Part shown: positions 10,220 to 34,419 of the stretch, piece after piece
How the letters are laid out: each line of letters starts with the position of its first letter
How positions within the stretch are numbered: the first letter of the stretch is position 1
Assembly: GCF_009883635.2 (NCBI RefSeq)
Contig: NZ_CP026115.2
Coordinates: 5,332,001-5,396,000, forward strand
Reading direction: 5' to 3'
Source: Pseudomonas putida
Lineage (GTDB): Bacteria > Pseudomonadota > Gammaproteobacteria > Pseudomonadales > Pseudomonadaceae
Length of the DNA stretch: 64,000 nucleotides
Made by a program: the position numbers and the translations under genes
Notes under the pieces: generated by a model
The model's database searches: none
What the model saw: the letters and a program-made list of their open reading frames with translations, nothing else
What the model was told of the DNA's origin: nothing

Positions 10220-10324
10220 GAATGTGTACGCCTCCATGGGTAGCCACCCCGCTGGTGTTGGATACTGACTGGCCGAACGGGAATATTCGAATTACGACGA
10301 TAGCAAGGTGCGGAACGATGCAAT

Positions 10325-18311: not shown

Positions 18312-19274
18312 TCATTTCCAGGGATACTTCATCTCCCACGCCCACGCATGACTCACGATCTCATCCAGTGAAGTGTGCACGGGTTGCCAGCCCAGCACCG
18401 ACCTGGCTTCTTCAGCATCGGCCACCAGCCGGGGCGGGTCACCAGCGCGGCGTGGCGCTTCATTCACATTGATCTGCCGCCCGGTCACTGCCCGAGCAGT
18501 ATCGATCACTTCCTGCACCGAAAACCCTAGTCCGTTGCCCAGGTTGAACGCAGTGGTCACACCGTCAGCCAGCAGGTACTCCACTGCCAGCGCGTGCGCC
18601 GAAGCCAGGTCTTCAACGTGGATATAGTCACGGATGCAAGTGCCATCGGGGGTGTCGTAGTCATGGCCGAACACGGTCACGGCCTCGCGGCGCCCGGAGG
18701 CCGCCTGCAGGATCAGTGGAATCAGGTGGGTTTCCGGCTCATGGCATTCGCCCAGTTCGCCGTCCGGGTCAGCGCCGGCCGCGTTGAAATAACGCAAGCT
18801 CACCGAGCGCAGGCCATAGGCCCGGTCGAAGTCTTCGAGCATCTGTTCCACCATCCATTTGGTGCGGCCGTAGGGGTTGATCGGCACCTTCGGGTGTTGC
18901 TCGTCGATGGGTACATACTGAGGGTCGCCGTACACGGCTGCACTGGAGGAGAAGATCAGTCGCTTGATGCCTGCCCGTTCCATCGCCTCCAACAGACTCA
19001 GGGTCGCGCAGACGTTGTTCTGGTAGTACTTGTCGGGGGCGGCCACCGACTCGCCGACCTGGATGAACGAGGCGAAATGGAACACCGCATCGAAGTGACA
19101 GTCGCTGAACAGGGCGTCCAGCGCGCGGCCGTCGGCGATGTCGAGACAGTTCCACTTGATGCCGGGCGCCGGCGCCTGAAGGTCTGCAACCACCACCTCA
19201 TGGCCGGCACGCAGCAGGTGCTTGACCATGTGTGAACCGATATAACCTGCACCACCGACAACCAAGTACTTCAT
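18312..19274 (-). CDS. galE: UDP-glucose 4-epimerase
   Basis: A 320-residue short-chain dehydrogenase/reductase interconverting UDP-glucose and UDP-galactose with bound NAD. The Rossmann motif GGAGYIGSH is at residues 7-15. The catalytic SSSAAVYG and YGRTKWMVE (YxxxK) are present, and NPYGRTK and CIRDYIHVEDLA match GalE. AGGAGG lies 7 nt before the ATG. It is the last gene of a three-gene minus-strand operon (Wzy, hydrolase, galE) that converges on the export operon. It should supply UDP-Gal (or UDP-GalNAc) for the polymer. Identity is secure; the in vivo sugar is inferred. Confidence 0.95.
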   Translation of the reverse strand: MKYLVVGGAGYIGSHMVKHLLRAGHEVVVADLQAPAPGIKWNCLDIADGRALDALFSDCHFDAVFHFASFIQVGESVAAPDKYYQNNVCATLSLLEAMERAGIKRLIFSSSAAVYGDPQYVPIDEQHPKVPINPYGRTKWMVEQMLEDFDRAYGLRSVSLRYFNAAGADPDGELGECHEPETHLIPLILQAASGRREAVTVFGHDYDTPDGTCIRDYIHVEDLASAHALAVEYLLADGVTTAFNLGNGLGFSVQEVIDTARAVTGRQINVNEAPRRAGDPPRLVADAEEARSVLGWQPVHTSLDEIVSHAWAWEMKYPWK

Positions 19275-19349: not shown

Positions 19350-21950
19350 CTATTTCAAGAACAGCCAGTTGGCCATGTGCTGGCCATCGAACGTGATCAG
19401 GTAGCGCCCATCCTTGTAGCTCGCAGGCAGGGCATTTTCCTTGCCGTCGCTGCTGCGGCTGTAGAGCTTCAGACCTGCTGGTGCCTTGATGCTCAGGCTG
19501 CCTTCGAGGGGTTCGACATGGAAGGGTGTGACGTCATCGGGCCTGGGGATGGCGCGGCTGCCCAGTGAAATGAGCAGGTTGCGCGACTTGGCCAGCGGCT
19601 TGCTGTCCAGGCTCTGCACCACGACACTGGCGTAGCCGGTTTTCAGCTGGACGTGGATGTCACCCACGCTCAGCGACTGGCCACCCAGCCAGCCCGTCGC
19701 CGCCTGCGTCATGGGCGTATCGATGGTGTAGAGGCCTTGTTGCCAGTTGTGGCGCAGTTCGCCGCTGTCGCTTACGGCTTCGCTGGCATTGGCATCGATC
19801 AGTGACTGCCCAGGGTCTTTCAGCACCTGCGCGTCAGCGGGAATCGTGCCGGCCTGCAGCCACGGCAACTCCGGGGTTTGCGGCATGGCGATCTGCAGAC
19901 GGCCTTTTTCCATGGCGGTGCGCAACATCACCGAGTTGGCCGGTGAGATGTCCTGATTGAACAGCGTTGCCGCGGTGGGTGCGAAAACATAGCGGGTATT
20001 TGCCTGGTGCACGTCTTGGCGCCGATAGAGCAGGGCGGCGGCGGGGAGGGTGGCGATCAGCCCCGGGTCGTTGTAGGCATTCCAGTTGTCGGCCCGGCGC
20101 CATGGTTCGAAGAACGCCTGCTGGCTGTAGGCGTATTGCATGATTGCGTCCCAGCCCTGGTGGCTGCCGGTGCCGGCTACGTAAAGCGGCAGCGTGTGGC
20201 GGTCGGGCAAGGGAAAGGGTTCGGCGTTCCACTCGGTGACGGTCATCGGCTTGCCCAGCACCTGGGCCGCACCCAGCCAGTTGATCATGCCGTCGCTGCT
20301 CAGCGGGTTCTTCTCCAGTTGGCCAAGGCCGCCGTAGCTGTGGGCGTCGACCACGTCACCCGCCGTCAATGCGGGCAGCGAGGACAGGCCATTGAGGCCC
20401 CAGGTGCTGGTGGTGGCGATCGGCACCTTGACCCCGAGCGTGCGCAGGTAGCCGATCATGTCGGCGTAGAAACGCTGCTCAAGGTCGTTGAGGAACAGCT
20501 TCGACGGGCCGTGCTCCCAGGCGCGCCAGGTCTTGTCCGCCGGCAGGTCGTGGCGCTGGGCGAAGGCCTTGGCCTGCTCCATGTAGAGGCGGCTGTGCTT
20601 GGGGACATCCTTGTCGGGCAGCAGTGCGTTGCCGAAGTGGTGGGTGACATCGTTCTCGTTGGTGATCAGCACGGCGGCAATCGCCGGGTCGTCCTTGTAG
20701 GCGAGCCCGGTGTAGCTGTTGACGTGGGTCAGGTACTGCTCGGCAAAGCGCTTCAAGGCCTGCTGCAGGGTGACGTTGACGAACAGGTAGCCCTTGAGGC
20801 CAGCGACGCCATGGTCCTTGGGCAGCTCGTCGAAACCGTAGATGTTGTCGGCGGCAGTGACTGGCCGCGACACATGCAGGTCGAGCCACACATAGATACC
20901 TTCGTCCTTGAGGCTCTTGATCCACAGGTCGATCTTCTTCAGCGACTCGGCGCTGAGCTGCTGGGTGTCCTTGATCTGCTGCAGGTCGCCGAAGATGTTG
21001 GGCGTCACCCAGGGGGAGTCATGGTGGTGCAGGCGCACGAGGTTGAAGCCCAGGGCCGACAGGCGCTTGGCCTGTTGCCTGATTTCTTCGTCGGGCGTAC
21101 GGAACAGCGAATAGGCCGACAGGTTGGTACCCCAGAAACGCACCGGGGTGCCGTCGGCAAACACCAGCTGCTCACCATCGGCCTTGACGAAGCCACGCTT
21201 GCCGGCCGGTTTCTCTGGCGTGTTGAGAAACGACAGGTCAACCGGTGAAGTGCGCCAGTCGAGCTGGTCATCCGGCCATGTCGTGGGGTCGGTCATGCCG
21301 AAGCGTTCAGTAGCGGTCTGGCCGATGGTGATATCCCCGGTCACGCTCAGCTGCGCCTTGATCTGCTGTTGCCCAGGCTTGATCGGGTCGGTGTAGAAGA
21401 AGGTGCGCACCTGGTCGGTGTTGCCGCGCTCGAAATACACCTTGGCCAACGGTGGGTCGAAGCGCATTTCGACGTGTGGCCCTTGGGGGTTCTTGCCCCA
21501 CGACCAGCCGCGATTGTCGGGTAACAGCACCGGGTCGCCCATTTCCCCGGCGATCAGCGTGGGGTCGAAGCGCCAGACGATACCGCCCCCCATCACGTTG
21601 CTCTGCCTGCTGTGCGCCTGCAGGTCAAAGTCCCAGGTGAGGGTTTGCGCCTGGGGCTTCTGGATGTCGGCCTTCAGGTCGAAGTCCAGGTCCTTGTTGC
21701 TGCCGGTCAGTGTGTAGCGGTAGGGCCCATCGACCTTGAGCGCAGGATAGAACCCGGTCCACCCCCAGTTCGCGCCCCAGAAGTCGAAGCTGGGCACGAA
21801 GGCCGGGCCACCCCCTCGGGTCAGTGTGGGCAGGCCGTTCTGCTCGTCGACACGCACGACCCACTCGGATGCCCAGGCGCCCACTGGCAATGCCAGCAGG
21901 CCGACCAGTAGCGATGTGCGGGTCCATGTACACAGGGCGAGACTGGGCAT
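19350..21950 (-). CDS. Secreted GH-A clan glycoside hydrolase of the EPS locus
   Basis: An 866-residue periplasmic or secreted glycoside hydrolase with a Sec signal peptide (cleavage near AWA|SEW). An N-terminal beta domain of about 240 residues is followed by a TIM barrel of the GH5-like clan A: GTNLSAYS, NLVRLHHHD, acid/base candidate Glu432 in ITNEND and nucleophile candidate Glu573 in MTVTEWN. A beta-sandwich closes the protein. The start overlaps the end region of the upstream polymerase gene (4-nt gap), so translation is probably coupled. EPS operons often carry such an enzyme to trim or clear polymer in the periplasm. The bond cleaved is unknown. Confidence 0.87.
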   Translation of the reverse strand: MPSLALCTWTRTSLLVGLLALPVGAWASEWVVRVDEQNGLPTLTRGGGPAFVPSFDFWGANWGWTGFYPALKVDGPYRYTLTGSNKDLDFDLKADIQKPQAQTLTWDFDLQAHSRQSNVMGGGIVWRFDPTLIAGEMGDPVLLPDNRGWSWGKNPQGPHVEMRFDPPLAKVYFERGNTDQVRTFFYTDPIKPGQQQIKAQLSVTGDITIGQTATERFGMTDPTTWPDDQLDWRTSPVDLSFLNTPEKPAGKRGFVKADGEQLVFADGTPVRFWGTNLSAYSLFRTPDEEIRQQAKRLSALGFNLVRLHHHDSPWVTPNIFGDLQQIKDTQQLSAESLKKIDLWIKSLKDEGIYVWLDLHVSRPVTAADNIYGFDELPKDHGVAGLKGYLFVNVTLQQALKRFAEQYLTHVNSYTGLAYKDDPAIAAVLITNENDVTHHFGNALLPDKDVPKHSRLYMEQAKAFAQRHDLPADKTWRAWEHGPSKLFLNDLEQRFYADMIGYLRTLGVKVPIATTSTWGLNGLSSLPALTAGDVVDAHSYGGLGQLEKNPLSSDGMINWLGAAQVLGKPMTVTEWNAEPFPLPDRHTLPLYVAGTGSHQGWDAIMQYAYSQQAFFEPWRRADNWNAYNDPGLIATLPAAALLYRRQDVHQANTRYVFAPTAATLFNQDISPANSVMLRTAMEKGRLQIAMPQTPELPWLQAGTIPADAQVLKDPGQSLIDANASEAVSDSGELRHNWQQGLYTIDTPMTQAATGWLGGQSLSVGDIHVQLKTGYASVVVQSLDSKPLAKSRNLLISLGSRAIPRPDDVTPFHVEPLEGSLSIKAPAGLKLYSRSSDGKENALPASYKDGRYLITFDGQHMANWLFLK

Positions 21951-21954
21951 CGAA

Positions 21955-23481
21955 CTACCTCGGTTGAAGGCTGATGGTGGTCACCTGGCTGGTTTCTTCA
22001 ATGGCCTGTCGGCGCATCATCTGGATGTAGGCGACGCTGAGCCCGGCAAGCGACCAGTACACGATCGGGATGACCGTGATGCTGCTGACGGTGAAAATGG
22101 TGACCAGGATCCCCAGCAGGGTCGCCAGCAGCACCCGCCCCAGCAGGCGGTACGGGTCAGCGTTGTCGCTGATCGCGCGCATTGCCCGGTGGATGCCCAG
22201 CAGGATGCAGGCGAAAAAGCCCAGGAACAGCCCCAGCCCCACCAGGCCGATGCGCAGGGCCAGGCCAACGTAGGTGTTGACGATGTCGATGATGCCTTCG
22301 CCCTGGATCATCGATTGCATTTCCGGGGTGCTGCGGTAATCGAAGGAGCCGAACAGCGGATTGCGCTGGATGACGATCCACGAATTGTCGAGCAGGCGTT
22401 GGCGGTAGGTGATGTTCTCCGTGTCCACCTTGCCGATGAAGGGCAGCAGGTCGAGTATCTTGTCGCCACCGGGCATGACGCTCAGCAGCGGTATGCTCAA
22501 CACCCCGGCCAGTGCCAGCAACGCCAGGCGCGATACGGCGCGCCTGCCCAGCGCGATGAACACCACCACGATTACCCCGGCGCCGATCCATGGGCCGCGC
22601 GAGAGTGGGGCAAACAGCCCGGCGGCCAGCAGCAGGGCGCCTAGATAGCGGTGCGCAGGCCGTTGCACGAAGTGCTGCACGAACAGGAACAAGCCGATGG
22701 CCACGGCCATCACGTAGCCGAGCACGATTGCCTGCCCGGTGGTGACACTGGCACGCAACGAGCCACCACGGCTCAGGTAGGCTTTCATGTCCCATTGCAG
22801 GCCCAGGGCATCGAGCAGGGCGTTGTACAGCAGCCAGTTTCGTACGTACTCGGCAACCCCGAGCAGCGCCAGGAGAAAGCCCACGAGGACGAACGCGAGC
22901 ATGGCGTCCTTGAAGTCACTGAGTTCACGCAAGCCACGGCTGGCCACGTAATAGGGCAGGAACACATCGATGTACAGGCTCAGCACCTGGCGCAGCGTGT
23001 CGGTGACGGTGGTTTCGCGCAGCGCCAGTGCGCTGGTCAGCACCAGGCTGGCCAGCAGCAGCTTGTCGGGCAGCAGGCGGCCGAAGCGAATGCTGTCGCT
23101 TTGCTTGCGCAGCACCAGCGCCGCCGGCAGCAGTACGCACAGGGTCAGGACGCGTTGGTGGTTGATGTCGAACAGGTAGTTGATCACGCCAAAACCGGGG
23201 ATTTCGGTCATCGCGGGCGGGATCAGGAACAGCAACAGGAAAAACAGCGCCAGCGGGTTGTGCTCGCGGCGCTGGGCAACCAGCAAGATCACCGTGGCGG
23301 CGCCGGCATACAGCCAGAAGCTGTGGGCGAAAAATGCCGCCAGGGTCAGCACAAACCACAGGTTGCGGCGTCGCTTGAAGTCCGCCAGGTGGATCAGGTC
23401 CGTTGCCGGACGCCGGGCCATGAAGAAAACCACACTGGCCACAATCACAATGACGACCAGGGCTCTTAAATGTTCAGGCAT
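21955..23481 (-). CDS. O-antigen ligase/polymerase family (Wzy-like) membrane protein
   Basis: A 508-residue integral membrane protein with about 12 hydrophobic segments and one large periplasmic loop containing DTENITYRQRLLDNSWIVIQ, the region typical of the Wzy_C/O-antigen ligase family. It would polymerise lipid-linked repeat units on the periplasmic face. It is first in the wzy-hydrolase-galE operon and divergent from the Tat/GMC operon across 296 bp. No exosortase-type motifs are seen, so it should not be mistaken for EpsH/XrtA. Family call is firm; polymerase rather than ligase role is inferred from the Wza/Wzc setting. Confidence 0.88.
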   Translation of the reverse strand: MPEHLRALVVIVIVASVVFFMARRPATDLIHLADFKRRRNLWFVLTLAAFFAHSFWLYAGAATVILLVAQRREHNPLALFFLLLFLIPPAMTEIPGFGVINYLFDINHQRVLTLCVLLPAALVLRKQSDSIRFGRLLPDKLLLASLVLTSALALRETTVTDTLRQVLSLYIDVFLPYYVASRGLRELSDFKDAMLAFVLVGFLLALLGVAEYVRNWLLYNALLDALGLQWDMKAYLSRGGSLRASVTTGQAIVLGYVMAVAIGLFLFVQHFVQRPAHRYLGALLLAAGLFAPLSRGPWIGAGVIVVVFIALGRRAVSRLALLALAGVLSIPLLSVMPGGDKILDLLPFIGKVDTENITYRQRLLDNSWIVIQRNPLFGSFDYRSTPEMQSMIQGEGIIDIVNTYVGLALRIGLVGLGLFLGFFACILLGIHRAMRAISDNADPYRLLGRVLLATLLGILVTIFTVSSITVIPIVYWSLAGLSVAYIQMMRRQAIEETSQVTTISLQPR

Positions 23482-23777
23482 GGGTTGTAGGCACCTATCC
23501 CTCGGTGGACTGGATGGAGGCTAGCATCGTGGCTAAATGAAACTATAGTGAGTTCTAGCCATTCGGTCAGAGATTGAAGTCATGCAGTCGATTGAAGTTG
23601 TGGCGATGCGAAAAATCCAGCACAGGCGCGTGACGCAGGTTATGCCTATGATTGCGATAGGGGCACTCAGTGCCTCTCTGTCGACGCGCTTTTTCGATTG
23701 ACCCTGATGGTCGCCCGACAAGGCCCGCGGCGGTAGAGAGCGGGGCATAAGAAAATCAACGGTATGGGGCTGTGATC
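23482..23777. promoter_or_regulatory. Divergent promoter region with GATTGAAGT direct repeats
   Basis: This 296-bp AT-richer region separates the divergent wzy and Tat/GMC operons. It contains two direct copies of GATTGAAGT at 23572-23580 and 23590-23598, 18 bp start to start and so nearly on the same helix face. The spacing suits a tandem-bound activator. No good sigma-70 pair stands out. Confidence 0.4.
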
Positions 23778-23984
23778 ATGGGGAAGCTGCAGTTTTGTAC
23801 TCCGTTGCTGGGGCGGAGAGGCTTTCTACGTAATTGTGTCTTGTTGAGTGCCGGGGCGGCCGTGTTCGGTGTCTGTGTCAATGCCAACGCCAATGCGGCG
23901 CGCAAACCAGAGCCAAAGGGCGGCTTCGTCATCATCAACGGCTGGGTGTTGCCGGTGGGGTACTTCCAGGACGGGCGCTCATGA
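23778..23984 (+). CDS. Tat-signal mini-protein, escort subunit of GMC oxidoreductase
   Basis: A 68-residue protein with a twin-arginine signal (GRRGFLRN at about residues 11-18, then LLSAGAAVFGV and an ANA|A-type cleavage site). After processing only about 27 residues are left, including GGFVIINGWVLP. Small Tat-signal subunits of gluconate, sorbitol and fructose dehydrogenases carry a similar arrangement and bring the folded signal-less flavoprotein to the periplasm. Its stop overlaps the flavoprotein start by 4 nt (ATGA), indicating coupled synthesis. The start is ATG 23778; a GTG at 23772 is possible. The tail is shorter than any such subunit I know. Confidence 0.75.
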   Translation: MGKLQFCTPLLGRRGFLRNCVLLSAGAAVFGVCVNANANAARKPEPKGGFVIINGWVLPVGYFQDGRS

Positions 23985-25447
23985 TCAAGGACTACGACAC
24001 CGACAAGACCCTGCGTAACGCTTACGACTTCTGCATCATCGGTGCAGGCCCAGCGGGGATCACGCTGGCCTTGCGCCTGGCGGCTGCGGGATGGAGCGTG
24101 GCGTTGCTCGAAGGGGGCGCGCGCGAGTACACGCCGCGCTCGCAGGCGCTGTACAAATGCACCTCCACCGGCCTCGAGCTGTATCCCGGGGAAGCCCGCC
24201 TGCGTTATCTGGGCGGCACCTCCAATCACTGGATGGGGCGTTGCCGGCCGTTCACCGAATCTGATTTCGCCGTGCCACCGCCCGTCGACATGCCCGGTTG
24301 GCCGATCCCTTTCGCTGAGATCGAACGCTATTTGCCGGGCGCCATGGAGATCGTCGATCTGCCCCAGGGCGCGGAGTTTCGCGCGGTGAACCCGGGCCTG
24401 AATGGTGGCGATTTCGATGCCGACCGTTTCCTGCTCAGTCCACCAACACGTTTTGCGCAGAAGTACGCCACGGCGCTCGACCAAACGCCTGGGCTGGATG
24501 TGTTCATCAACTGTAACTGCGTCGACCTCCTGTTCGACAAGGCCCACGGCCGGTTGAAAGCTGTTCAGGTGGCCGATTACGACGGCAAGCGTCAGCCGGT
24601 CACCGCGCACAACTACATCCTGGCCATGGGCGCCATTGAAAACGCCAGGCAACTGCTCAACAGCCAGTCGTTGGCGGACGCGGGCATCGTGCGCAAGGAC
24701 GGCCTGGTCGGTCGGTGCTTCATGGAGCACCTGAATATCGACATGGGCAAGTTCATCCTGCGCAGCGGGGAAGGCACCGAGCCGCGTCAATACTTCACCA
24801 CCGATGCCTTCGTCGCCGAATACCACGCCGGCAAGGGCAATGTACTGGCGTCGGTGCTGGATGATGTGCGGACCTACGGCCGCACGGCCGAAGTGAAGCA
24901 CTTCCTGGAAAACCTGGCCTGTGAAATGGGCGTGGCCAGCAAGATCGCATTCGTGGCCAAGTTCAGCTGCCCGGGCGATGGCGTGATCACCACGCTGATC
25001 GAGCAGTTTCCCAACGTTCAGAGCCGCATCTCGCTGCTGGATGAAAAGGACGAACTGGGCGTGGCCAAGGTCAATGTCAACTGGGTATTGAGCGCCGATG
25101 ACCGGCACACCATCAAGTGCATCGGCAGCGAACTGGCCAAGCAGTTCGCCGAAATGGGCCTGGGTTACATCAAGCTCAGCGATTACGTCTACGACACCAG
25201 CCTGCCGCTGATGTTGTCGCCGCATGCGCATCACATGGGCACCACGCGGATGGCGGCGGCCGCGAAGGACGGGGTGGTCGATATCAACTGCAAGGTGTTC
25301 GGCACCGAAAACCTCTATGTCGCCGGCAGCAGTATCTTCGCCACCGGCGGGGCCTCGAACCCGACCATGCCACTGCTGCAGTTCGCCTTGAGGCTGGCCG
25401 ACCACCTCAACGAGAAGATGAACAGCACAAAGGGAGCGGCGGCCTGA
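23981..25447 (+). CDS. GMC-family FAD oxidoreductase, probably periplasmic via Tat partner
   Basis: A 488-residue glucose-methanol-choline flavoprotein. The FAD-binding GAGPAGITLALRLAAAG is near residues 18-34, followed by LRYLGGTSNHWMGR. The C-terminal catalytic region has HHMGTTRMA, LYVAGSSIF and ASNPTMPLLQ, so the active-site His/Asn pair is intact. It has no signal peptide; the overlapping Tat mini-protein is the likely escort. No cytochrome c or third subunit follows, so the electron acceptor is unknown. It leads the glycosyltransferase operon, which suggests oxidation of a sugar in the polymer or its precursor. The long upstream extension of the frame to 23834 is only antiphase reading of the Tat gene. 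Confidence 0.88.
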   Translation: MIKDYDTDKTLRNAYDFCIIGAGPAGITLALRLAAAGWSVALLEGGAREYTPRSQALYKCTSTGLELYPGEARLRYLGGTSNHWMGRCRPFTESDFAVPPPVDMPGWPIPFAEIERYLPGAMEIVDLPQGAEFRAVNPGLNGGDFDADRFLLSPPTRFAQKYATALDQTPGLDVFINCNCVDLLFDKAHGRLKAVQVADYDGKRQPVTAHNYILAMGAIENARQLLNSQSLADAGIVRKDGLVGRCFMEHLNIDMGKFILRSGEGTEPRQYFTTDAFVAEYHAGKGNVLASVLDDVRTYGRTAEVKHFLENLACEMGVASKIAFVAKFSCPGDGVITTLIEQFPNVQSRISLLDEKDELGVAKVNVNWVLSADDRHTIKCIGSELAKQFAEMGLGYIKLSDYVYDTSLPLMLSPHAHHMGTTRMAAAAKDGVVDINCKVFGTENLYVAGSSIFATGGASNPTMPLLQFALRLADHLNEKMNSTKGAAA

Positions 25448-25568: not shown

Positions 25569-26186
25569 ATGTTTGGATGGATACGCAATGCAGTGGCGCA
25601 TTATGCCAACACGACCGGACGCGGCGTTTCGGTCTACAGGAAAATCTGCAATCCCACACCCAGGCAGTGGGGTGAATACCACTGCCGATGGGGCCGGTTC
25701 TATTCGGTGGGCAGCAACTTTCACATGAATGTCGGTTGCAACGTCACCGACCCGTCGCTGGTGCGCATCGGCAACAATGTCGGCTTGTCCGATTGCACGC
25801 TGCTTGGTCACGACGGCGTGGTCGCGCTCATCGAGCTCTGCTATGGCAAGAAGCTGGATTCGGTCGGTGTCATCGACGTCAGGGACAACAGCTTCGTCGG
25901 CCACGGCGCGATCATCATGCCGCGCGTGACTATCGGGCCTGACTCGGTGGTGGCTGCCGGTGCCGTGGTGACCAAGGACGTGCCTCCGGGGACCGTGGTC
26001 GGCGGCAACCCGGCCAAGTTCATCTGCACCACTGAAGACCTGATCAAGCGGGTCGAAGAGCGTTGCAACGCCTACCCCTGGATAGACCTGATCAAGCAAC
26101 GCAATGGCTCCTTCGACCCGGCGCTGGAGTCAACCTTGGCGATGCACCGGCGTCGCTATTTCTTCGGGGACGGCAGCAATGGATAA
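25569..26186 (+). CDS. Hexapeptide-repeat acyltransferase
   Basis: A 205-residue left-handed beta-helix acyltransferase of the CysE/NodL/WcaF superfamily. Hexapeptide turns run from about residue 50 to 160 (VRIGNNVGLSDC, FVGHGAIIMPRVTIG, SVVAAGAVVTKDV) and end in the usual GNPAKFI. It would O-acetylate (or otherwise acylate) a sugar in the repeat unit, using acyl-CoA. ATG 25569 has GCGAGG at good spacing; an earlier TTG at 25518 is unlikely. It overlaps the following glycosyltransferase by 8 nt, so the two are coupled. The acceptor is unknown. Confidence 0.85.
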   Translation: MFGWIRNAVAHYANTTGRGVSVYRKICNPTPRQWGEYHCRWGRFYSVGSNFHMNVGCNVTDPSLVRIGNNVGLSDCTLLGHDGVVALIELCYGKKLDSVGVIDVRDNSFVGHGAIIMPRVTIGPDSVVAAGAVVTKDVPPGTVVGGNPAKFICTTEDLIKRVEERCNAYPWIDLIKQRNGSFDPALESTLAMHRRRYFFGDGSNG

Positions 26187-27135
26187 GAAGCCTGTCGATG
26201 TGATGGTGGTCAACTTCAACACCGCGGCATTGCTGCAGCCGATGTTCGATGCACTGCGCGCCGCAGGTGGTGAGGCGTTGGCCAGCTACCTGGTGGTGGA
26301 CAATGCCTCGGTTGACGACTCGGTGGAGCGCCTGGGCAAGGTCTGCCCTGAAGCGCTGTTGCTGAGCAACAAGCTCAACGTCGGCTTTGGCCGCGCCAAC
26401 AATCAACTGCTGGCGCACCTGCAAGGCAAGTACGCGCTGTTGCTCAATACCGACGCCTTCGTGGCTGCCGACAGCCTGCAGAAAACCGTCGACTACATGG
26501 AAGCACACCCGGAGTGCGGCATTCTTGGCGTGCGCCTGGTAGGCCGGGATGGCGATCTGCAGCCGAGCTGCCGCTATTTCCCGACCCCCTTGAACGTGTT
26601 CGTCGGGCGCACCGGGCTCGGGCGTTTCTTCCCTGGGCTGAAAATGGTCGATGAAATGGACTGGGACCACGCCTCGGTGCGTGAGTGTGACTGGTTGCCC
26701 GGTTGCTTCTACCTGGTGCGCCGTGAAGTGCTCGACCAGGTGGGGCTATTTGACCCGCGCTACTTCCTTTATTACGAGGAAGTGGACCATTGCAAGCGGG
26801 TGAAGGCGGCCGGCTGGAAAGTGGTGTACTTCCCCGACACCACCGTGGTGCACATCGGTGGTGAAAGCTCCAAGTCGGTGGCCGAACTGGAAGCGGCGAG
26901 CCGGCAGATATCCGGTTATCAGATCGAGAGCGAGCTGTTGTATTTCCGTAAGCATCACGGCCCGGCGGGGCTGGCCTTGCACATGCTGCTGGTGAGCCTG
27001 GGTGACCTGGTGCTGGCGCTCAAGGCATTGCTCAAAGGCCGCGGCCTGGCCGCGATCAAGGCGTGCTGGCGGCATACCTGCGCCACCTGGTCGCTGTTGT
27101 TCAAGACCCAGTTTGCCAGCCAACCCACACGGTAG
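26179..27135 (+). CDS. Glycosyltransferase family 2 (rhamnosyltransferase-like)
   Basis: A 318-residue GT-A glycosyltransferase. VMVVNFNTAALLQPM opens the fold, NVGFGRANNQ and LLNTDAFV (DxD-like) follow, and EVDHCKRVKAAGWKV is the usual GT2 ExDxxxR-type acceptor region. The pattern resembles WbbL-type rhamnosyltransferases, but the sugar is not predictable. There are no strong membrane segments except a weakly hydrophobic C-terminal stretch. ATG 26179 lies inside the end of the acyltransferase gene. Next gene follows after 8 bp. Confidence 0.88.
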   Translation: MDKKPVDVMVVNFNTAALLQPMFDALRAAGGEALASYLVVDNASVDDSVERLGKVCPEALLLSNKLNVGFGRANNQLLAHLQGKYALLLNTDAFVAADSLQKTVDYMEAHPECGILGVRLVGRDGDLQPSCRYFPTPLNVFVGRTGLGRFFPGLKMVDEMDWDHASVRECDWLPGCFYLVRREVLDQVGLFDPRYFLYYEEVDHCKRVKAAGWKVVYFPDTTVVHIGGESSKSVAELEAASRQISGYQIESELLYFRKHHGPAGLALHMLLVSLGDLVLALKALLKGRGLAAIKACWRHTCATWSLLFKTQFASQPTR

Positions 27136-27143: not shown

Positions 27144-27668
27144 ATGTTCGAAAACATCCGCGCAGATTTGCGTGCTCATGGGGGGGATTGGGGCGCCCAG
27201 GGGTTCTGGGTGCTGCTGGTCTACCGCTTCGGCCGCTGGCGCTACGGCGTGCGCCCGGCCGTGCTGCGCAAGTTGTGCTCTTTTGTCTACAAGGTGCTGT
27301 TCAAGTTCGTGCAGATCATCACCGGGGTCGAACTGCCCTGCGAGGTGGTGATTGGCCGCAACTTCGTCATCGACCACTTCGGCGGCATCGTCATCAGTGG
27401 CTATGCGCGTTTTGGCGATGACTGCCGGATCCGTAACGGCGTGGTGGTGGGCCTGAAGAATGTCGACGAACCCATCGCCCCGGTGTTCGGCAACAACGTG
27501 GATATCGGCGCCGGTGCCAAGGTGCTGGGCAATATACGCATCGGTAACAACGTGACGATAGGCTCCAACGCGGTAGTGCTGATCGATGTGCCGGACAACT
27601 GCCTGGCAGTGGGAGTGCCCGCGACCATCAAGGCGCGCAAGCACAGCGATGCGATGCAGTACACGTGA
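27144..27668 (+). CDS. Serine O-acetyltransferase-like hexapeptide protein
   Basis: A 174-residue CysE-type hexapeptide acetyltransferase. It opens with an amphipathic helix (VLLVYRFGRWRYGV) as in EPS-locus serine acetyltransferase homologues, then beta-helix repeats (VIGRNFVIDHFGGIVI, VDIGAGAKVLGNIRIG, VTIGSNAVVLIDV) and GVPATIKAR. The His of the active-site loop is present in IDHFGG. Members in EPS clusters acetylate sugars rather than serine. GGTAGGTG precedes the ATG. It is the second acyltransferase of the operon, which suggests two acyl decorations or sites. Confidence 0.85.
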   Translation: MFENIRADLRAHGGDWGAQGFWVLLVYRFGRWRYGVRPAVLRKLCSFVYKVLFKFVQIITGVELPCEVVIGRNFVIDHFGGIVISGYARFGDDCRIRNGVVVGLKNVDEPIAPVFGNNVDIGAGAKVLGNIRIGNNVTIGSNAVVLIDVPDNCLAVGVPATIKARKHSDAMQYT

Positions 27669-27695
27669 CCTAGCCCAAGCGGACGAGTGAAGCTC

Positions 27696-28673
27696 ATGGT
27701 GACAGGCATTGGAGTGGTGGTGATCGGTCGCAATGAGGGCCAGCGCCTGGAGCGCTGCCTGTTGTCGCTGATGGGCCGTGCGGACCAGCTGGTGTACGTG
27801 GACTCCGGCTCCTCCGACGGCTCGGTACAGCTGGCGCATCGGCTGGGCGTCGAAGTGGTGGCGCTGGACATGGCGCAACCCTTTACCGCTGCACGCGCGC
27901 GCAACGAAGGCTTTGCCTGCCTGCAAGCCATCGTGCCCGGTATCCGCCATGTGCAGTTCGTCGACGGCGACTGCGAAGTGGATGCCGGCTGGCTGGGCAA
28001 GGCCCAGGCATTCCTCGACCAGCACCCGGACGTGGCAGTGGTGTGCGGGCGCCGCCGCGAGCGCTTCCCGCAGCGCTCGGTGTACAACCTGCTGTGCGAC
28101 CTGGAATGGGACACTCCCGTGGGGGAAGCCAAGGCCTGCGGCGGCGATGCACTGATGCGTGTCGACGCCTTCATGGCGGTGTCCGGTTTTCGCCCCGAAC
28201 TGATTGCCGGCGAAGAACCGGAACTGTGCGTGCGCTTGCGCGCGGGCGGCTGGAAGGTCTGGCGCCTGCCCGATGAAATGACCCTGCACGATGCCGCCAT
28301 GACCCGTTTCGGGCAATGGTGGCGGCGTAGTCTACGTGCCGGTTATGCCTATGCCGAAGGCGCTTACCTGCATGGACAGACGCCGGAACGCCATTGGTTG
28401 CGTGAATCACGGCGCGCCTGGTTATGGGGCCTGAACCTGCCGCTGGCGATCTTCGCTGTGAGCCTGTTGTCGGGCGGTTGGGGGCTGTTGTTGTTGCTGG
28501 TCTATCCGTTGCAGATCGTGCGCCTGGCCCGCCGGGGCGAGCGTTCGACGCGGGAAAACTGGTGGCAGGCGGTGTTCCTGGTGCTGGGCAAGTTCCCGGA
28601 AATGCTCGGCCAGGCGAAGTTCCTGCTGAACAGGTATGCGGCCGGCAAGGCGCTGCTGATCGAGTACAAATGA
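27696..28673 (+). CDS. Glycosyltransferase family 2 with C-terminal membrane segments
   Basis: A 325-residue GT2 enzyme. GVVVIGRNEGQRLERCLLS and VYVDSGSSDGS form the nucleotide-sugar site, QFVDGDCEV is the DxD-like motif, and ELIAGEEPELCVRLR carries the catalytic ExP(E/D)xxxR element. Two hydrophobic stretches near the C-terminus (NLPLAIFAVSLLS and WGLLLLLVYPLQIV) suggest membrane attachment. The ATG 27696 and the GTG 27687 are both possible starts. It ends 1 bp before the DUF535 gene. The sugar is unknown. Confidence 0.87.
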   Translation: MVTGIGVVVIGRNEGQRLERCLLSLMGRADQLVYVDSGSSDGSVQLAHRLGVEVVALDMAQPFTAARARNEGFACLQAIVPGIRHVQFVDGDCEVDAGWLGKAQAFLDQHPDVAVVCGRRRERFPQRSVYNLLCDLEWDTPVGEAKACGGDALMRVDAFMAVSGFRPELIAGEEPELCVRLRAGGWKVWRLPDEMTLHDAAMTRFGQWWRRSLRAGYAYAEGAYLHGQTPERHWLRESRRAWLWGLNLPLAIFAVSLLSGGWGLLLLLVYPLQIVRLARRGERSTRENWWQAVFLVLGKFPEMLGQAKFLLNRYAAGKALLIEYK

Positions 28674-28674
28674 C

Positions 28675-29628
28675 ATGACGATGACGTTCAGATCGCTGGC
28701 CAAGAGCGTGCTCACCTTGCAGCCCGGTTATTCGCTGCGCGCGCTCAACAACAAGTACAAGTTGACGGTTTCCATGGCCCGGGAGTGGTCCGGCTTGCAG
28801 GCCTTTGCCCAGCGCATGTCACGGGCACTGGGCCAAGACCGCTTCGAGCGGCTGGGCGTCGATTGCATTGGCGTCGTTCAGTGGCCTTACATCAGCAAAT
28901 GCTGGAACGCCCCGCAGCGTCTCGATGCGGTGGCGTCGCACTATGAAGTGGTGACTGCGCACTGTGCCCCGTTGCTGCTGTTGCGGCGTGACGAGCACCG
29001 ACAGTTGTGCGACCTGACGGCATACTCCAGCGGCTGCAGCCTGGTGCTCGACCGGCCGATCTGGTTCAAGCGCGAAGGGGAGCTGGTGATCAACCTGTTC
29101 CAGGGCGAACTGCGCGTGGCCTCGCTCGCCTTTACCCTGTGCCGTGAAGCGGCAGGCCTGTGCCTGTACATCGGCGCAGTGCAGGGCATCCACAAGGGCG
29201 TGGACAGCGAGACCTCGCTGACAATCTACCGCGACCTGACCAAGGACTTCGAAGGCCTGCGCCCCAGAAGCCTGCTGATCGAGGCGATCAAGTGCGTGGC
29301 AAGAACGCTGGGGGCCGTGCGCATCTATGCGGTGGGGGACGACTACCGCCACCATCGCCATCCTTATTTTGGCGCCGACAAGCATCAGGATCTGGCGGCC
29401 AACTACGATGTGATCTGGCAGGAAAACGGCGCCGGGCCCTCGGACCGCGAGGACTTTTTCATCATCCCCTTGGCACCCGCGCAGCGCGCGGTAGAGGAAG
29501 TCGCAGCGAAGAAGCGGGCGATGTACCGCAGGCGCCATGCGTTGCTGGATGACGCGTTTGGCCAGATACAGGCCGCCTTGGCCGGCAGCCCTGCGCAGCA
29601 AAGCACGGCAGGCCTGGCCATTCAGTAA
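28675..29628 (+). CDS. DUF535 (VirK/YbjX family) protein
   Basis: A 317-residue protein of the DUF535 family, which includes Shigella VirK and E. coli YbjX and is often linked to envelope integrity. The family signature is the central LFQGELRVASLAFTL, followed by YIGAVQGIHKG and IYAVGDDYRHHRH, the last being a run of His residues. No signal peptide or membrane helix is visible. It sits between two glycosyltransferase genes, so it probably belongs to polymer assembly, but its biochemical role is unknown. ATG 28675 follows the upstream stop by one base. Confidence 0.85.
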   Translation: MTMTFRSLAKSVLTLQPGYSLRALNNKYKLTVSMAREWSGLQAFAQRMSRALGQDRFERLGVDCIGVVQWPYISKCWNAPQRLDAVASHYEVVTAHCAPLLLLRRDEHRQLCDLTAYSSGCSLVLDRPIWFKREGELVINLFQGELRVASLAFTLCREAAGLCLYIGAVQGIHKGVDSETSLTIYRDLTKDFEGLRPRSLLIEAIKCVARTLGAVRIYAVGDDYRHHRHPYFGADKHQDLAANYDVIWQENGAGPSDREDFFIIPLAPAQRAVEEVAAKKRAMYRRRHALLDDAFGQIQAALAGSPAQQSTAGLAIQ

Positions 29629-29650: not shown

Positions 29651-30856
29651 ATGCGTATCGCTTATTTCATCAATCAGTATCCCAAGGTCAGTCACAGTTT
29701 CATTCGCCGCGAAATACTGGCGCTGGAGCGCCAGGGCGTCGAGGTTCAGCGTATCGCCTTGCGAGGCTGGGATGCCGAACTGCACGACGCCGAGGACCTG
29801 GCCGAACGGAGCAAGACCCGCTATGTGCTGCAGGATGGGTTGAGGGGCTTGTTGAAGCCGTTGTTCGAGGTCGTACGGGCACAACCCAAGCGGTTTTTTG
29901 GCGCACTGCGCCTGGCGCTTCGCCTGGGCTGGCGCGCTGATCGCCCATGGGCCTACCACCTGATCTACCTGGCCGAAGCGTGCCGGCTGGTGCAATGGCT
30001 GCAGTCATCCGCTGCGGAACATGTGCACGCACACTTTGGCACCAACTCGGCAGAAGTGGTGATGCTGGCCAATGCCCTCGGCGGGCCGGCCTACAGCTTC
30101 ACCGTGCATGGGCCGGAAGAGTTCGACAAGGCGCAGATCCTGCACCTGGGCGAGAAGGTGCGGCGCGCCGCTTTCGTGGCTGCGGTCAGCTCTTTCGGTC
30201 GTAGCCAGTTGTATCGCTGGGTGGCCCATGAGCACTGGGGCAAGGTCAAGGTGGTGCATTGTGGCCTGGAGCGCAGTTTCCACGAGGGCACCGCGCTTGC
30301 ACCGCCGGCTGCGCCTCGGCTGGTTTGCGTGGGGCGTCTGTGTGAGCAGAAAGGCCAGCTGCTGCTGATCGAGGCGGCGCGCACCCTGGCGAGCCGGGGC
30401 GTGCCCTTCGAACTGGTGTTGGCCGGCGATGGCGAATTGCGCGGCCCGATCGAGGCGTTGATTGCACGGTATGGCTTGCAGGCGCAAGTGCGCATCACCG
30501 GCTGGATCAGCAGTGCACAGGTGCGGGACGAACTTCTCGCCGCGCGTGCCCTGGTACTGCCCAGCTTTGCCGAGGGCTTGCCGGTGGTGATCATGGAGGC
30601 CATGGCGTTGCGCCGGCCGGTGCTGACCACCTATGTGGCCGGCATTCCCGAACTGGTCCACCCGGGTGAGAACGGCTGGTTGTTCCCGGCAGGTTCCGCC
30701 GAGGCGTTGACCGAGGCCATGCTCGACTGCCTGCAGCAACCCGTGGAGGTTCTGCAGCGCATGGGCGAGGCTGCCTACCAGCGCGTACTCACGCGCCACG
30801 ACATCGATACTGAAGCCGCCAGGCTGGTCGGCCATTTCAAGGTGCCGACATGCTGA
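29651..30856 (+). CDS. Glycosyltransferase family 4 (GT-B)
   Basis: A 401-residue GT-B glycosyltransferase. IAYFINQYPKVSHSFIRRE begins the acceptor domain and HVHAHFGTNSAE and YSFTVHGPEE follow. The donor domain has LVCVGRLCEQKGQLLLIEA, and ALVLPSFAEGLPVVIMEAMA contains the E(x7)E retaining motif. This is the colanic/amylovoran WcaL-AmsK type. The ATG 29651 has a GGGG box; the frame upstream to 29537 overlaps DUF535 and is rejected. The next gene overlaps by 7 nt. Confidence 0.9.
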   Translation: MRIAYFINQYPKVSHSFIRREILALERQGVEVQRIALRGWDAELHDAEDLAERSKTRYVLQDGLRGLLKPLFEVVRAQPKRFFGALRLALRLGWRADRPWAYHLIYLAEACRLVQWLQSSAAEHVHAHFGTNSAEVVMLANALGGPAYSFTVHGPEEFDKAQILHLGEKVRRAAFVAAVSSFGRSQLYRWVAHEHWGKVKVVHCGLERSFHEGTALAPPAAPRLVCVGRLCEQKGQLLLIEAARTLASRGVPFELVLAGDGELRGPIEALIARYGLQAQVRITGWISSAQVRDELLAARALVLPSFAEGLPVVIMEAMALRRPVLTTYVAGIPELVHPGENGWLFPAGSAEALTEAMLDCLQQPVEVLQRMGEAAYQRVLTRHDIDTEAARLVGHFKVPTC

Positions 30857-32037
30857 CTCTGTTGAGCGGGTTGTTGGGCCTGGCGGTGCTGCTGGTCTTG
30901 TTGCCGACGCTGGTGCTGTTCACCCAGGTGGTACTGGCCTGCCTGCCTGCGCCTGTACCAGGCGCTCGGCAAGGTCCTCGTGCGCGGGTTGCCGTGCTGG
31001 TGCCCGCGCACAACGAGGCATCGCTGATCGCGTCCACGCTTGCCAGCATCAGGCCGCAATTGCGTGAAGGCGACCAGCTGCTGGTGGTCGCGGACAACTG
31101 CACGGACCAGACCGCAAGCCTTGCCCGCGCGGCGGGCGCGCAGGTGGTCGAGCGCCAGGATCAGCAGCACCGGGGCAAGGGCTACGCATTGGACTTCGGG
31201 GTGCAGCATCTGCGCCAGTCGCCCCCCGAGGTACTGATCATCATCGACGCAGACTGCCAGGTAGGGGCGGGTGCGCTCGAGCAACTGGCGCGCTGCTGTG
31301 TCGACAATGCCCGGCCCGCGCAAGCGCTGTATCTGATGCATGCCCCTGCCGGCGCCGGGTTGAAGGTGCAGGTCGCCGCCTTTGCCTGGCGGGTGAAGAA
31401 CCTGGTCCGCCCGCGTGGCTGGGCCCGGGCGGGCTTGCCCTGTCAGTTGATGGGGGCGGGCATGGCCTTTGCCTGGCAAGACGTGTCGGCCGTCAACCTG
31501 GCCACCGGGCACCTGGTCGAAGACCTGAAGCTGGGCCTGGAGTGCGCTGCGCTTGGCAAGCCGCCGCTGTTTTGCCCGGAGGCTGTGGTCAACAGTCACT
31601 TCCCCACCAGCCAGGAAGGCCTGAGCATCCAGCGCAAGCGTTGGGAGCATGGTCACCTGGGGGTGGTGCTGGCCGAGGGGCCGAAGCTTCTGGGGCGCGC
31701 GCTGGTACAACGCAACTGGCCGCTGTTGGGCATGGCCGCCGACCTGCTGGTGCCACCGCTGGCCTTGTTGTCTTTGCTGCTGATGGTGCTTTTTGCGGTT
31801 ACCTGGCTGGCCTTCGGGGTATTCGGCGTGCTGTTGCCCGCGCTGCTTGCCACGCTGGCGTTGGGCCTGCTCGGCGCTGCCGTCCTGCTGGCGTGGGCGC
31901 GCTTTGCACGGGAGCTGATCCCGTTTTCGGTGCTGATGTACGCGCCGTTCTATGCGGCCAGGAAAATCCCCCTGTACCTGGGGTTTCTACTCAAGCGCCA
32001 GGTGGACTGGGTGCGCTCGAAGCGGGATGACAGCTGA
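30850..32037 (+). CDS. Membrane glycosyltransferase family 2 (processive-type motifs)
   Basis: A 395-residue GT2 with an N-terminal membrane helix (residues 5-32) and a group of helices after residue 290. VLVPAHNEASLI, VADNCTDQTA, IIIDADCQV, GHLVEDLKLG (ED base) and QRKRWEHGH (QxxRW) are visible. QxxRW is typical of processive enzymes but also of single-transfer members such as those of the ExoO/AmsE surroundings. It overlaps the GT4 gene by 7 nt and the WecG-like gene by 1 nt (TGATG), so the three are translationally linked. Confidence 0.88.
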   Translation: MLTLLSGLLGLAVLLVLLPTLVLFTQVVLACLPAPVPGARQGPRARVAVLVPAHNEASLIASTLASIRPQLREGDQLLVVADNCTDQTASLARAAGAQVVERQDQQHRGKGYALDFGVQHLRQSPPEVLIIIDADCQVGAGALEQLARCCVDNARPAQALYLMHAPAGAGLKVQVAAFAWRVKNLVRPRGWARAGLPCQLMGAGMAFAWQDVSAVNLATGHLVEDLKLGLECAALGKPPLFCPEAVVNSHFPTSQEGLSIQRKRWEHGHLGVVLAEGPKLLGRALVQRNWPLLGMAADLLVPPLALLSLLLMVLFAVTWLAFGVFGVLLPALLATLALGLLGAAVLLAWARFARELIPFSVLMYAPFYAARKIPLYLGFLLKRQVDWVRSKRDDS

Positions 32038-32786
32038 TGGAAGCATGGGCCTGGCTGCAACGCTGGAAGTCGGTCATGGGCAAGTTGCGCCTGGTCCAGG
32101 ATGCAACCGAAGAGCAACGCCTGCTGGTGTCGCTGAGCTCACCACAGCGGGCAACCGTGCTGGGCTTCGTCAACGCCCATGCGATGAACCTGGTCGCGGG
32201 CAAGGCCGATTACTGCCAGGCACTGGCGGCAGCGGACGTGCTACTGCGTGACGGTGCCGGCATGGCGATATTGCTGCGGCGCCTGGGGCTGGCCCCCGGG
32301 CTCAACATGAACGGCACGGATTTCATCCCCAAGCTGCTGGCGGCCTTCAATGGCAGGCGCGTGGCATTCTGGGGGACGCGCGAGCCGTTCCTGTCCGCAG
32401 CCGCTCAGCGCTGCGAAGCGCAGTATGGCGTGCACGTGGTGTCACGGCACGATGGCTTTGCCGAGGTCGACACCTACCTCGGCCTCGCCCAGGCACACCA
32501 GCCAGCGCTGATCGTGCTGGGCATGGGGATGCCCAAGCAGGAGCAGGTGGCGGCACGCCTGGCGGCGCTCGACAGCCCCTGCCTGATCGTGTGCGGCGGC
32601 GCCATTGTCGACTTTTTGGGTGGCAAGGTAACGCGAGCCCCTCACTGGGTGCGGCGGTTAAACGGTGAGTGGGTTTTCAGGTTGCTCAAAGAGCCGAAGC
32701 GCCTGTTTGCACGCTATGTGATTGGTAATCCGGTGTTCCTTTTGCGTGCGGTGCTCTATGCCAGGGCGCCTGCGCATCGGGTGTAG
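32037..32786 (+). CDS. WecG/TagA/CpsF family glycosyltransferase (GT26)
   Basis: A 249-residue GT26 enzyme. The signatures are VNAHAMNLVAGKADY, LLRDGAGMAILLRRLG, LNMNGTDFI, LIVLGMGMPKQEQ and IVCGGAIVDFLGGKVTRAP. GT26 proteins usually add the second sugar (ManNAcA, ManNAc or glucose/GlcA-like as in GumM) to the lipid-linked primer made by an initiating transferase, here the WcaJ homologue encoded next. They act at the inner face of the membrane. Start and stop overlap with the upstream gene (TGATG). A 174-bp gap follows. Confidence 0.93.
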   Translation: MEAWAWLQRWKSVMGKLRLVQDATEEQRLLVSLSSPQRATVLGFVNAHAMNLVAGKADYCQALAAADVLLRDGAGMAILLRRLGLAPGLNMNGTDFIPKLLAAFNGRRVAFWGTREPFLSAAAQRCEAQYGVHVVSRHDGFAEVDTYLGLAQAHQPALIVLGMGMPKQEQVAARLAALDSPCLIVCGGAIVDFLGGKVTRAPHWVRRLNGEWVFRLLKEPKRLFARYVIGNPVFLLRAVLYARAPAHRV

Positions 32787-32960: not shown

Positions 32961-34382
32961 ATGGTGTTCGAACCCAGAAGCAGTCGGTCATTGCTCCAGC
33001 GCAGAAGCAGCGTCAGCAACGCCATTCAAGCGGGCCTTGACGGAATTGCCGTCACCGGCGTGGCGTGGTACCTGATCTACGACCAGTTCGGTTACATCAC
33101 CTCAGACTACGTGATCATGCTCCTGCTGCTGATCGGCGCGCTGGCGGTCATTTATGACCATTACGCCATCTACCGCAGCAACGTAGGGCTGTCGGTCAAG
33201 GCCTTCAGGCTGTTCAAGGCGTGGTCGGCGACGTTCTGTTTCCTGGTGGTCATCGCCTTCCTGACCAAGCAGAGCGAAACCTATTCACGCCTGCTGGTCG
33301 TTCAACTGTTTGTCATCGGCTATATCGTCCAGTTGTTCCTGCACGTGGCCATGCGCGAGCTGCAGAAGCGCTTCACGGCCCATGCGCGGCTGGACAACGC
33401 CTTGATCATCGGCAATGGCGACCTGGCCAATTTCCTGTATCAGAAGATCAGCAACAACCCGTGGTTCGGTGAGCGGGTAATGGGCTGTATCTGGGTCGAC
33501 CAGGAAGAGGACCAGGCCCGCGAGGCGCAAGATGCAAAGCTGCGCCTGCCGGTGCTGGGCAGCATCGCCGATCTGGACGAAATCATTGCCCAGCATGGCA
33601 TCCGCACCGTGTACCTGGTGACGCCCCTTGGCGGTTCTGCCGTCATTCAGGATGTCTACCTCAAGCTGCTCGACAAGTGCATCGCGGTCAATTGGGTGCC
33701 GGACATCTTCTCGCTTCGCCTGATCAACCACAGCGTGCGTGAAATTGCCGGTATTCCGGTGCTGACCCTGTCGGAAACGCCCCTGACCGGGACCAGCCTG
33801 TTCCTGAAAAACCTCGAGGACCGCGTGCTGGCCGCGCTCATCCTGCTGTGCGCATCGCCGGTATTGCTGGCGGTCGCATTGATCATCAAGTTCGACAGCC
33901 CGGGGCCGGTGTTCTTCCGTCAGGACCGTACAGGCTGGACCGGGGAGTCATTCCGTATCTGGAAATTCCGCAGCATGCACGTGCACCAACCGGAAAGTGG
34001 TGTGGTCGAGCAGGCGCAGCGTAATGACAAGCGGCTGACCCGGGTTGGCGCATTCATTCGGCGCACCAGCCTCGATGAGCTGCCGCAGCTGTTCAATGTG
34101 CTGACCGGCGACATGTCGCTGGTCGGCCCGCGTCCCCATGCCTTGCAGCACGACACCCTGTACTCCCAGGACATCGTCGATTACTTCGCCCGCCACAACA
34201 TCAAGCCCGGCATGACCGGCCTGGCACAAGTGCGGGGGTATCGGGGAGAAACCAAGGACATCGAGCAGATGATCCAGCGGGTCAATTCGGACATCGAGTA
34301 CATCAACAACTGGTCGTTGTGGCTCGACTTCGTGATCCTGGTGCGAACGGTCAATGCCTTCACCGGCAAGCAGGCTTATTGA
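32961..34382 (+). CDS. Undecaprenyl-phosphate glucose phosphotransferase (WcaJ/GumD-like)
   Basis: A 473-residue initiating polyprenyl-phosphate hexose-1-phosphate transferase. The N-terminal half has four to five membrane helices and a CoA-binding-like domain (ALIIGNGDLANFLY). The C-terminal catalytic domain has the usual order: KFDSPGPVFFRQDRTG, WKFRSMHVH, RLTRVGAFIRRTSLDELPQL and SLVGPRPHA. It loads the first sugar, most likely glucose-1-phosphate, onto undecaprenyl phosphate. It is typical for this enzyme to lie at the end of the pea-type locus. Start ATG 32961; weak Shine-Dalgarno (GTGAGG). Confidence 0.93.
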   Translation: MVFEPRSSRSLLQRRSSVSNAIQAGLDGIAVTGVAWYLIYDQFGYITSDYVIMLLLLIGALAVIYDHYAIYRSNVGLSVKAFRLFKAWSATFCFLVVIAFLTKQSETYSRLLVVQLFVIGYIVQLFLHVAMRELQKRFTAHARLDNALIIGNGDLANFLYQKISNNPWFGERVMGCIWVDQEEDQAREAQDAKLRLPVLGSIADLDEIIAQHGIRTVYLVTPLGGSAVIQDVYLKLLDKCIAVNWVPDIFSLRLINHSVREIAGIPVLTLSETPLTGTSLFLKNLEDRVLAALILLCASPVLLAVALIIKFDSPGPVFFRQDRTGWTGESFRIWKFRSMHVHQPESGVVEQAQRNDKRLTRVGAFIRRTSLDELPQLFNVLTGDMSLVGPRPHALQHDTLYSQDIVDYFARHNIKPGMTGLAQVRGYRGETKDIEQMIQRVNSDIEYINNWSLWLDFVILVRTVNAFTGKQAY

Positions 34383-34398
34383 CGCCGGAATCCGGCGT
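34382..34398 (+). terminator. Intercistronic hairpin between wcaJ-like and eptA-like genes
   Basis: ACGCCGG-AAT-CCGGCGT, a perfect 7-bp stem that starts on the stop codon. There is no U tract, so it may attenuate or stabilise mRNA ends rather than terminate fully. Confidence 0.45.
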
Positions 34399-34419
34399 GG
34401 CGTACAGGGGGGAGGGAGC

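Follow-up and report, generated by a model that had tools for sequence, protein, structure and literature searches.

A candidate minimal Tat escort for a GMC flavoprotein in the Pea polysaccharide cluster of Pseudomonas putida

Within a 64,000-nt stretch of the Pseudomonas putida genome (on contig NZ_CP026115.2; the 64,000 nt are here called the window, and the host genome is 6.19 Mb in a single contig), a very short ORF with a twin-arginine signal overlaps the start of a gene for a GMC flavoprotein, next to genes for polysaccharide synthesis. The arrangement raises the question of whether so small a protein could take the flavoprotein across the inner membrane and, if so, what the enzyme would act upon. 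Our preferred reading, to which we give a probability of roughly 0.6, is that of a minimal Tat hitchhiker arrangement exporting an FAD oxidase or dehydrogenase for the periplasmic oxidation of a Pea sugar.

A twin-arginine mini-protein and a compact flavoprotein

The escort ORF (23778..23984, +) runs from an M codon at 23778 to a TGA at 23984 and encodes the 68-aa protein MGKLQFCTPLLGRRGFLRNCVLLSAGAAVFGVCVNANANAARKPEPKGGFVIINGWVLPVGYFQDGRS, with the signal GRRGFLRN..., a mature part of about 27 aa and the tail GGFVIINGWVLP; the mature escort tail is FVIINGWVLPVGYF. Its 3′ end shares an ATGA with the start of the flavoprotein gene (23981..25447, +; 488 aa), whose ATG lies at 23981. To place the pair among its relatives we scanned named genomes and kept the best 80 of 125 matches, which gave 79 loci of at least 51% identity and left out 45 weaker matches. 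These loci are labelled as 75 Pseudomonas, 2 Pantoea, one Rhodocyclaceae MAG and one Comamonas MAG, and among the matches listed (in one case the best 120 of 2888) the named relatives of the GMC and the escort are almost all Pseudomonas. A small ORF with RR and a GW tail stands directly upstream of the GMC gene in 79/79 kept loci (best 80 of 125 matches). The first-pass annotation had described a 68-residue twin-arginine ORF overlapping a 488-residue GMC by ATGA and had likened it to a Tat-escort arrangement; the ORFs and the 79 kept loci bear out the former, and the constant RR and GW tail support the latter. In one locus (L099) the escort and the GMC can be read through in frame.

The twin-arginine motif of the signal is present in every kept locus, with F at +2 after RR in 66 of the 79 escorts (scored from the last RR). 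The tail pattern V-x-x-(N/D)-G-W-V-(L/V/I)-P persists across the kept loci while its codons vary: over ten tail positions V, G, W, V and P do not vary in any of the 79 loci and L is kept in all but two (77), yet Gly and Pro are each written with four different codons. In a set of 14 escorts chosen for their diversity, no residues other than M1, R13, R14, V51 and G55-W56-V57-L58-P59 are shared by all. Moreover, the codon differences between the window escort and those of three relatives (L026, L027 and L028) come to a pairwise sum of 13 synonymous and one non-synonymous. Judged by its sequence, the escort is a coding gene with two conserved places, namely its Tat motif and its tail. A chance ORF is ruled out by the codon evidence. 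A Pfam search with the 68-aa escort matched no family; the best PDB match of its profile was the Tat signal of the arsenite oxidase small subunit (E 0.018), weaker matches including the signals of CueO, EfeB and N2O reductase. Three TatC genes are present in the host genome.

We assign the flavoprotein to the GMC superfamily because it contains PF05199 (GMC_oxred_C; 71.2 bits, cut-off 24.6, E 1.6e-19) and aligns to solved GMC enzymes; PF00732 (GMC_oxred_N) stayed below its cut-off (16.7 bits against 23, E 0.0067) and the N-terminal FAD fold was detected as DAO and Pyr_redox_2. This FAD-binding fold begins at about residue 14, therefore there is no space for a signal peptide, in agreement with the earlier view that the GMC has no signal of its own. 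Its relatives include glucose dehydrogenase and pyranose oxidase, the nearest solved ones by profile being glucose dehydrogenase 6a2u (4.9e-45) and then fructose dehydrogenase. We take 6a2u to be the gamma-alpha complex of Burkholderia cepacia glucose dehydrogenase (BcGDH), with which the residue numbers agree. H417 and N460 of the GMC align without gaps with positions 476 and 519 of the B. cepacia chain (His476/Asn519), which are described as the catalytic pair of BcGDH (PMC6719666). The 3Fe-4S motif for which we searched, C-x5-C-x3-C (Cys212/218/222 in BcGDH), is absent from the window GMC, and the stretch that holds the Fe-S cluster is about 47 residues shorter than in glucose dehydrogenase in the profile alignment. 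Moreover, no CxxCH haem motif is found in the 19 genes of the cluster, as expected from the earlier statement that no cytochrome is present. The predicted features of the GMC fit a soluble periplasmic oxidase or a quinone-linked dehydrogenase.

The Pea cluster and its link to the pair

The pair is followed on the + strand by a hexapeptide acyltransferase (AT1; 25569..26186), a family 2 glycosyltransferase (GT2a; 26179..27135), a second hexapeptide transferase that is serine O-acetyltransferase-like and corresponds to PP_3136 by gene order (AT2; 27144..27668), a further glycosyltransferase (GT2b; 27687..28673), a DUF535 protein with a VirK domain, PP_3138 by gene order (28675..29628), the glycosyltransferase used as cluster marker (GT4; 29651..30856), another glycosyltransferase (GT2c; 30850..32037), a WecG/TagA/CpsF glycosyltransferase (32037..32786) and an initiating sugar-phosphate transferase (Bac_transf; 32961..34382). 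On the − strand lie Wzy (21955..23481), with the O-antigen ligase/polymerase domain PF04932, an 866-aa GH5-like hydrolase (19350..21950) and a GalE-type epimerase (18312..19274). When the cluster proteins of the window were searched by tblastn against the 79 loci, AT2 and Wzy were found in 78 loci each, GH5, GT2a, GT2b, GT4 and GT2c in 77 each, GalE and WecG in 76 each, DUF535 in 72 and AT1 in 71. AT2 is outside the flank in L086 (G543; L152/L153), where a segment that holds the pair, wzx, wzy and export genes is flipped with respect to the glycosyltransferase operon, and the glycosyltransferases of this locus are outside the flank because of that inversion.

Several further ORFs were observed near these genes. 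A sulfatase-domain protein (34354-36081) overlaps the end of the initiating transferase in the window and is within the flank in only 17/79 loci, and an M60-like metallopeptidase with a CBM96 domain (7955-10237) is encoded near the EPS locus. In two relatives, ORFs of 994 aa (L155, 11807-14791) and 1004 aa (L156, 4767-7781) start at the DUF535 gene and extend toward GT4, whose position there is shifted downstream by about 2 kb relative to the window.

The P. putida Pea operon PP_3132-3142 is given in PMC4287175 as a transporter, an oxidoreductase (PP_3133, 'oxidoreductase, putative'), a conserved protein, a glycosyltransferase, a serine O-acetyltransferase and a GT2, followed by VirK (PP_3138), GT1 (PP_3139), GT2 (PP_3140), WecB/TagA/CpsF (PP_3141) and a sugar transferase (PP_3142). 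From PP_3133 to PP_3142, all ten genes have counterparts in the window in the same order, the comparison being one of annotation order and not of KT2440 sequence, and the PP_3132 transporter corresponds to the wzx of the relatives (PF13440). By annotated gene order, the window locus is the Pea cluster already known from P. putida, and because this order is the same the GMC is the equivalent of PP_3133. Two differences stand out: the published cluster table (PMC4287175) has no small ORF between PP_3132 and PP_3133, where the window has the escort, and the tabulated Pea operon is headed by the transporter, whereas the window is without wzx at this place.

The lack of wzx bears on the earlier claim that the pair heads the EPS operon. 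In 63/79 loci a wzx gene (at least 61% identity, 90% coverage) lies upstream on the same strand, its end no more than 700 nt from the GMC start in 60 of these 63. No wzx match was found upstream of the pair in the window (23482-23777 at the head) or in 14/79 loci; one locus (L066) has a wzx remnant of 58 residues upstream and another (L097) a wzx of 35% identity. Elsewhere in the host genome there is a 63%-identical wzx (G000:C1:484015-485376), and no homologues of the Pea cluster were found within the 20 kb read around it. The pair therefore leads the operon in the window because wzx is missing there, and its position at the operon head is a derived state; the claim holds for the window and not for the loci in general.

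All 79 kept loci are polysaccharide loci. They include one Comamonas and one Rhodocyclaceae locus in which the pair is kept, and in L097 the pair adjoins a different Wzy, wzx and acyltransferase. We measured co-occurrence with the cluster in 149 Pseudomonas genomes (E 1e-100), with the cluster GT4 as marker and a statistic that ignores shared ancestry. The GMC was found in 25 of 26 genomes with GT4 and in 0/123 without (Fisher 1.6e-27, uncorrected for ancestry). Moreover, the distance matrices of the GMC and Wzy are correlated over 76 loci (r 0.866; permutation maximum 0.129), as are those of the GMC and four further cluster genes (r 0.62-0.78; permutation maxima no higher than 0.162), values similar to those of two pairs of cluster genes among themselves (r 0.66 and 0.74). 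In one genome (G488, locus L154) the escort, the GMC and AT1 are missing as one block, so that wzx stands directly before GT2a, and the other cluster genes are kept. The module therefore looks like accessory tailoring; that is, escort and GMC look like a tailoring module of the Pea machinery that is dispensable for the existence of the cluster.

Escorted GMC proteins in distant clades

We sought more distant relatives in a phylum sample of 398 genomes, 34 of which had a match at E 1e-20. The window aside, nine GMC places aligned as one full-length piece, at 31-37% identity. Directly before eight of the nine stands a small Tat ORF whose product ends in GW(V/I/L)L; the ninth, a tandem copy in G272, has none. 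By the same test no GW-tailed Tat ORF was found in 21 further loci (L114-L134); in eight of these the stretch covered before the GMC match was no longer than about 196-388 nt. An alignment of escorts and GMCs together (A5) scattered the escorts, and another (A6) was built from the GMCs without them. In a midpoint-rooted tree of 39 GMCs, the escort-bearing proteins and the G272 tandem copy form one group of 18 rows with 91/92 support, which is below the starred level, and two label changes are needed, not one. As entered in the tree, the escort-bearing GMCs measure 458-491 aa, the shortest row being a 475-aa ORF that was trimmed. The remaining 22 rows span 476-587 aa, and 19 of these have 509 aa or more.

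Two further samples (297 and 289 genomes) gave 33 GMC places, nine of them already in the phylum sample. A mini-escort is present at 12/33 (7/24 of the new places). At 19/33 there is no escort in the scanned stretch, which in one case (L172) is at a contig edge, and we count this result against the main reading. At the remaining two places the Tat protein is longer and its C-terminal element is related: it has up to 177 aa in L177, where it ends in GRTIVLDGWILARSEAQLCALTVLL, and 110 aa in L190. L115 encodes a Tat protein of 131 aa whose end is alike, and GRTIVLDGWILARSEA, or an element resembling it, closes the longer Tat proteins that accompany related GMCs; the start of the L180 escort is ambiguous, its longest reading being 273 aa. 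Read most simply, the tail is the element at the C terminus with which larger Tat partners dock, and the mini-escort consists of a signal fused directly to that element; the direction in which one form gave rise to the other is one that we infer.

Where they were annotated, the neighbours of the distant pairs are diverse, comprising LptD/SurA/KsgA (L136), TetR/MarR/GGDEF (L139), and a tannase with a 2OG oxygenase (L138). The G272 pair has sugar-related neighbours (epimerases, an acyltransferase and a glycosyltransferase), and that of L192 (G586) adjoins a UDP-GlcNAc 2-epimerase, an epimerase, an aminotransferase and a HAD-UbiA protein, which suggests a lipid-linked sugar pathway. A search with the Pea-cluster proteins around the other distant pairs matched only the GMC and, in L136, also the escort. 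The arrangement thus occurs outside glycan loci in distant clades, and therefore the enzyme class is not EPS-specific. An EPS-only architecture is ruled out by these pairs. The first-pass annotation had looked to synteny with EPS loci, and had named wide occurrence of the pair outside them, with an unrelated substrate, as evidence against its proposal. The synteny holds in all 79 kept loci (at least 51% identity) and breaks down in the distant clades, so that the adverse outcome has half come about. We are evenly balanced on the broader proposal of a class of minimal Tat hitchhikers, mostly of 43-84 aa and made of a signal and a GW docking strand, that accompany compact GMCs in several proteobacterial classes and, in the Pea clade, install an oxidised sugar on a periplasmic Wzx/Wzy repeat unit.

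The same data bear on an alternative in which the pair is an exported oxidase or dehydrogenase for free sugars or a small alcohol, kept in the EPS operon for regulation (e.g. for H2O2 production or scavenging of matrix sugars) and not for tailoring of the polymer. The three annotated distant pairs beside unrelated genes (LptD/SurA/KsgA, TetR/MarR/GGDEF and tannase), the tolerance of the cluster to loss of the pair in G488 and the kinship with glucose dehydrogenase and pyranose oxidase would all suit such a role. However, the co-occurrence with GT4 (25/26 against 0/123), the co-divergence with Wzy and the retention of the pair in the Comamonas and Rhodocyclaceae polysaccharide loci speak against it, and we regard the alternative as unlikely, if worth keeping in mind.

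Proposed export route and comparison with known systems

The fate of the escort itself was judged with a lenient cleavage-site rule of our own, [AVSGTLI]-x-A. A site was found in 72/79 escorts and leaves 20-33 residues, with a median of 27 that agrees with the earlier estimate of about 27 remaining residues; the other 7/79 have no such site between the hydrophobic stretch and the tail. These seven would be accommodated if the mini-protein stayed uncleaved and held the GMC at the periplasmic face, as a membrane anchor or a structural subunit for which transport is one part of its role. The 72 with a site, lenient as the rule is, make this improbable, and the idea would not in any case conflict with the main explanation. 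The TIGR01409 TAT model scored the window escort at 14.1 bits, under its cut-off of 16.7, which we count against the main reading. That score would agree with a cytoplasmic GMC that oxidises a precursor beside an unrelated Tat peptide, but the pair stands together in 79/79 kept loci, both members are missing in G488 and distant GMCs are escorted too (8/9 full-length and 7/24 new places), so that we give this idea very little credence.

Export of the GMC by the mini-protein is thus, on sequence grounds, the likely course, and the exported flavoenzyme may modify the Pea polysaccharide. In the hitchhiker route that we favour, translation of the mini-protein and the GMC would be coupled via the ATGA and the GMC would fold around its FAD in the cytoplasm. 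The FVxINGWVLP tail of the mini-protein would then dock on the GMC, and the twin-arginine signal would direct the complex through the inner membrane. Once in the periplasm, the GMC could oxidise a sugar hydroxyl in the lipid-linked Pea repeat unit or the nascent chain, the product being a keto, aldehyde or further oxidised sugar. The electrons would probably pass to O2 or quinone, because no haem partner is encoded nearby. DprE1 acts in the oxidation of a lipid-linked sugar, with a logic comparable to that of the proposed Pea step. The literature that we searched, mostly non-subscription, yielded no functional study of PP_3133 or the escort and no test of a redox step in Pea synthesis. For Pea, a periplasmic redox step could set the charge, cross-linking or stability of this P. 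putida biofilm polymer.

Among known systems, the closest likeness is to BcGDH, the small subunits of whose group are described as Tat hitchhikers (PMC6719666). There, the gamma subunit is of 168 aa with a 121-aa mature helical domain, its hydrophobic C-terminal tail lies lid-like on alpha beside the Fe-S cluster, and alpha, which carries a 3Fe-4S cluster, is in complex with a three-haem cytochrome c subunit (PMC6719666). As in BcGDH, the window has a GMC beside a Tat small subunit and the His/Asn catalytic pair is kept; unlike in BcGDH, the escort is of 68 aa, the Fe-S motif is missing and the cluster has no CxxCH (PMC6719666). The likeness of the escort tail to the Gly157-Phe158-Trp159 region of the gamma tail is an analogy only, and we do not claim homology. 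More generally, a Tat small subunit beside the catalytic subunit, as in the DET-type complexes (GDH, FDH and gluconate DH), is found in 79/79 kept loci, but the 68-aa escort has no folded domain of its own (e.g. PF13618) and the 19 cluster genes encode no multihaem cytochrome c subunit. Membership of the GDH/FDH complex family is ruled out by the missing Fe-S motif, large small subunit and cytochrome.

A gluconate 2-dehydrogenase of the host genome (L005) resembles the window pair in that a Tat small subunit adjoins the GMC; its small subunit is a 244-aa PF13618 protein (RRDFLRK), and its 594-aa GMC is about 100 aa longer than that of the window. Elsewhere in the host genome (L001, 767-2868) a 161-aa Tat partner with RRDLLRF and no Pfam family adjoins a 548-aa GMC. 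FAD-GO is described as a GMC enzyme with a small subunit that oxidises the 3-OH of glycosides, its FAD being re-oxidised by O2; it was studied on ginsenoside glycosides, and we liken it to the window pair by description and not by sequence (PMC4650693). By analogy with this 3-OH oxidation, a keto-sugar would be plausible for Pea, a 6-aldehyde being equally open.

Hitchhiker export is thus already known with much larger partners, of 168 aa in the BcGDH described in PMC6719666 and of 244 aa in the host genome. The arrangement reported here is a well-conserved variant of it, one clade of which is fixed in the Pea locus. If our reading is true, a signal and a strand of about ten residues would approach the minimum that Tat needs to transport a folded passenger.
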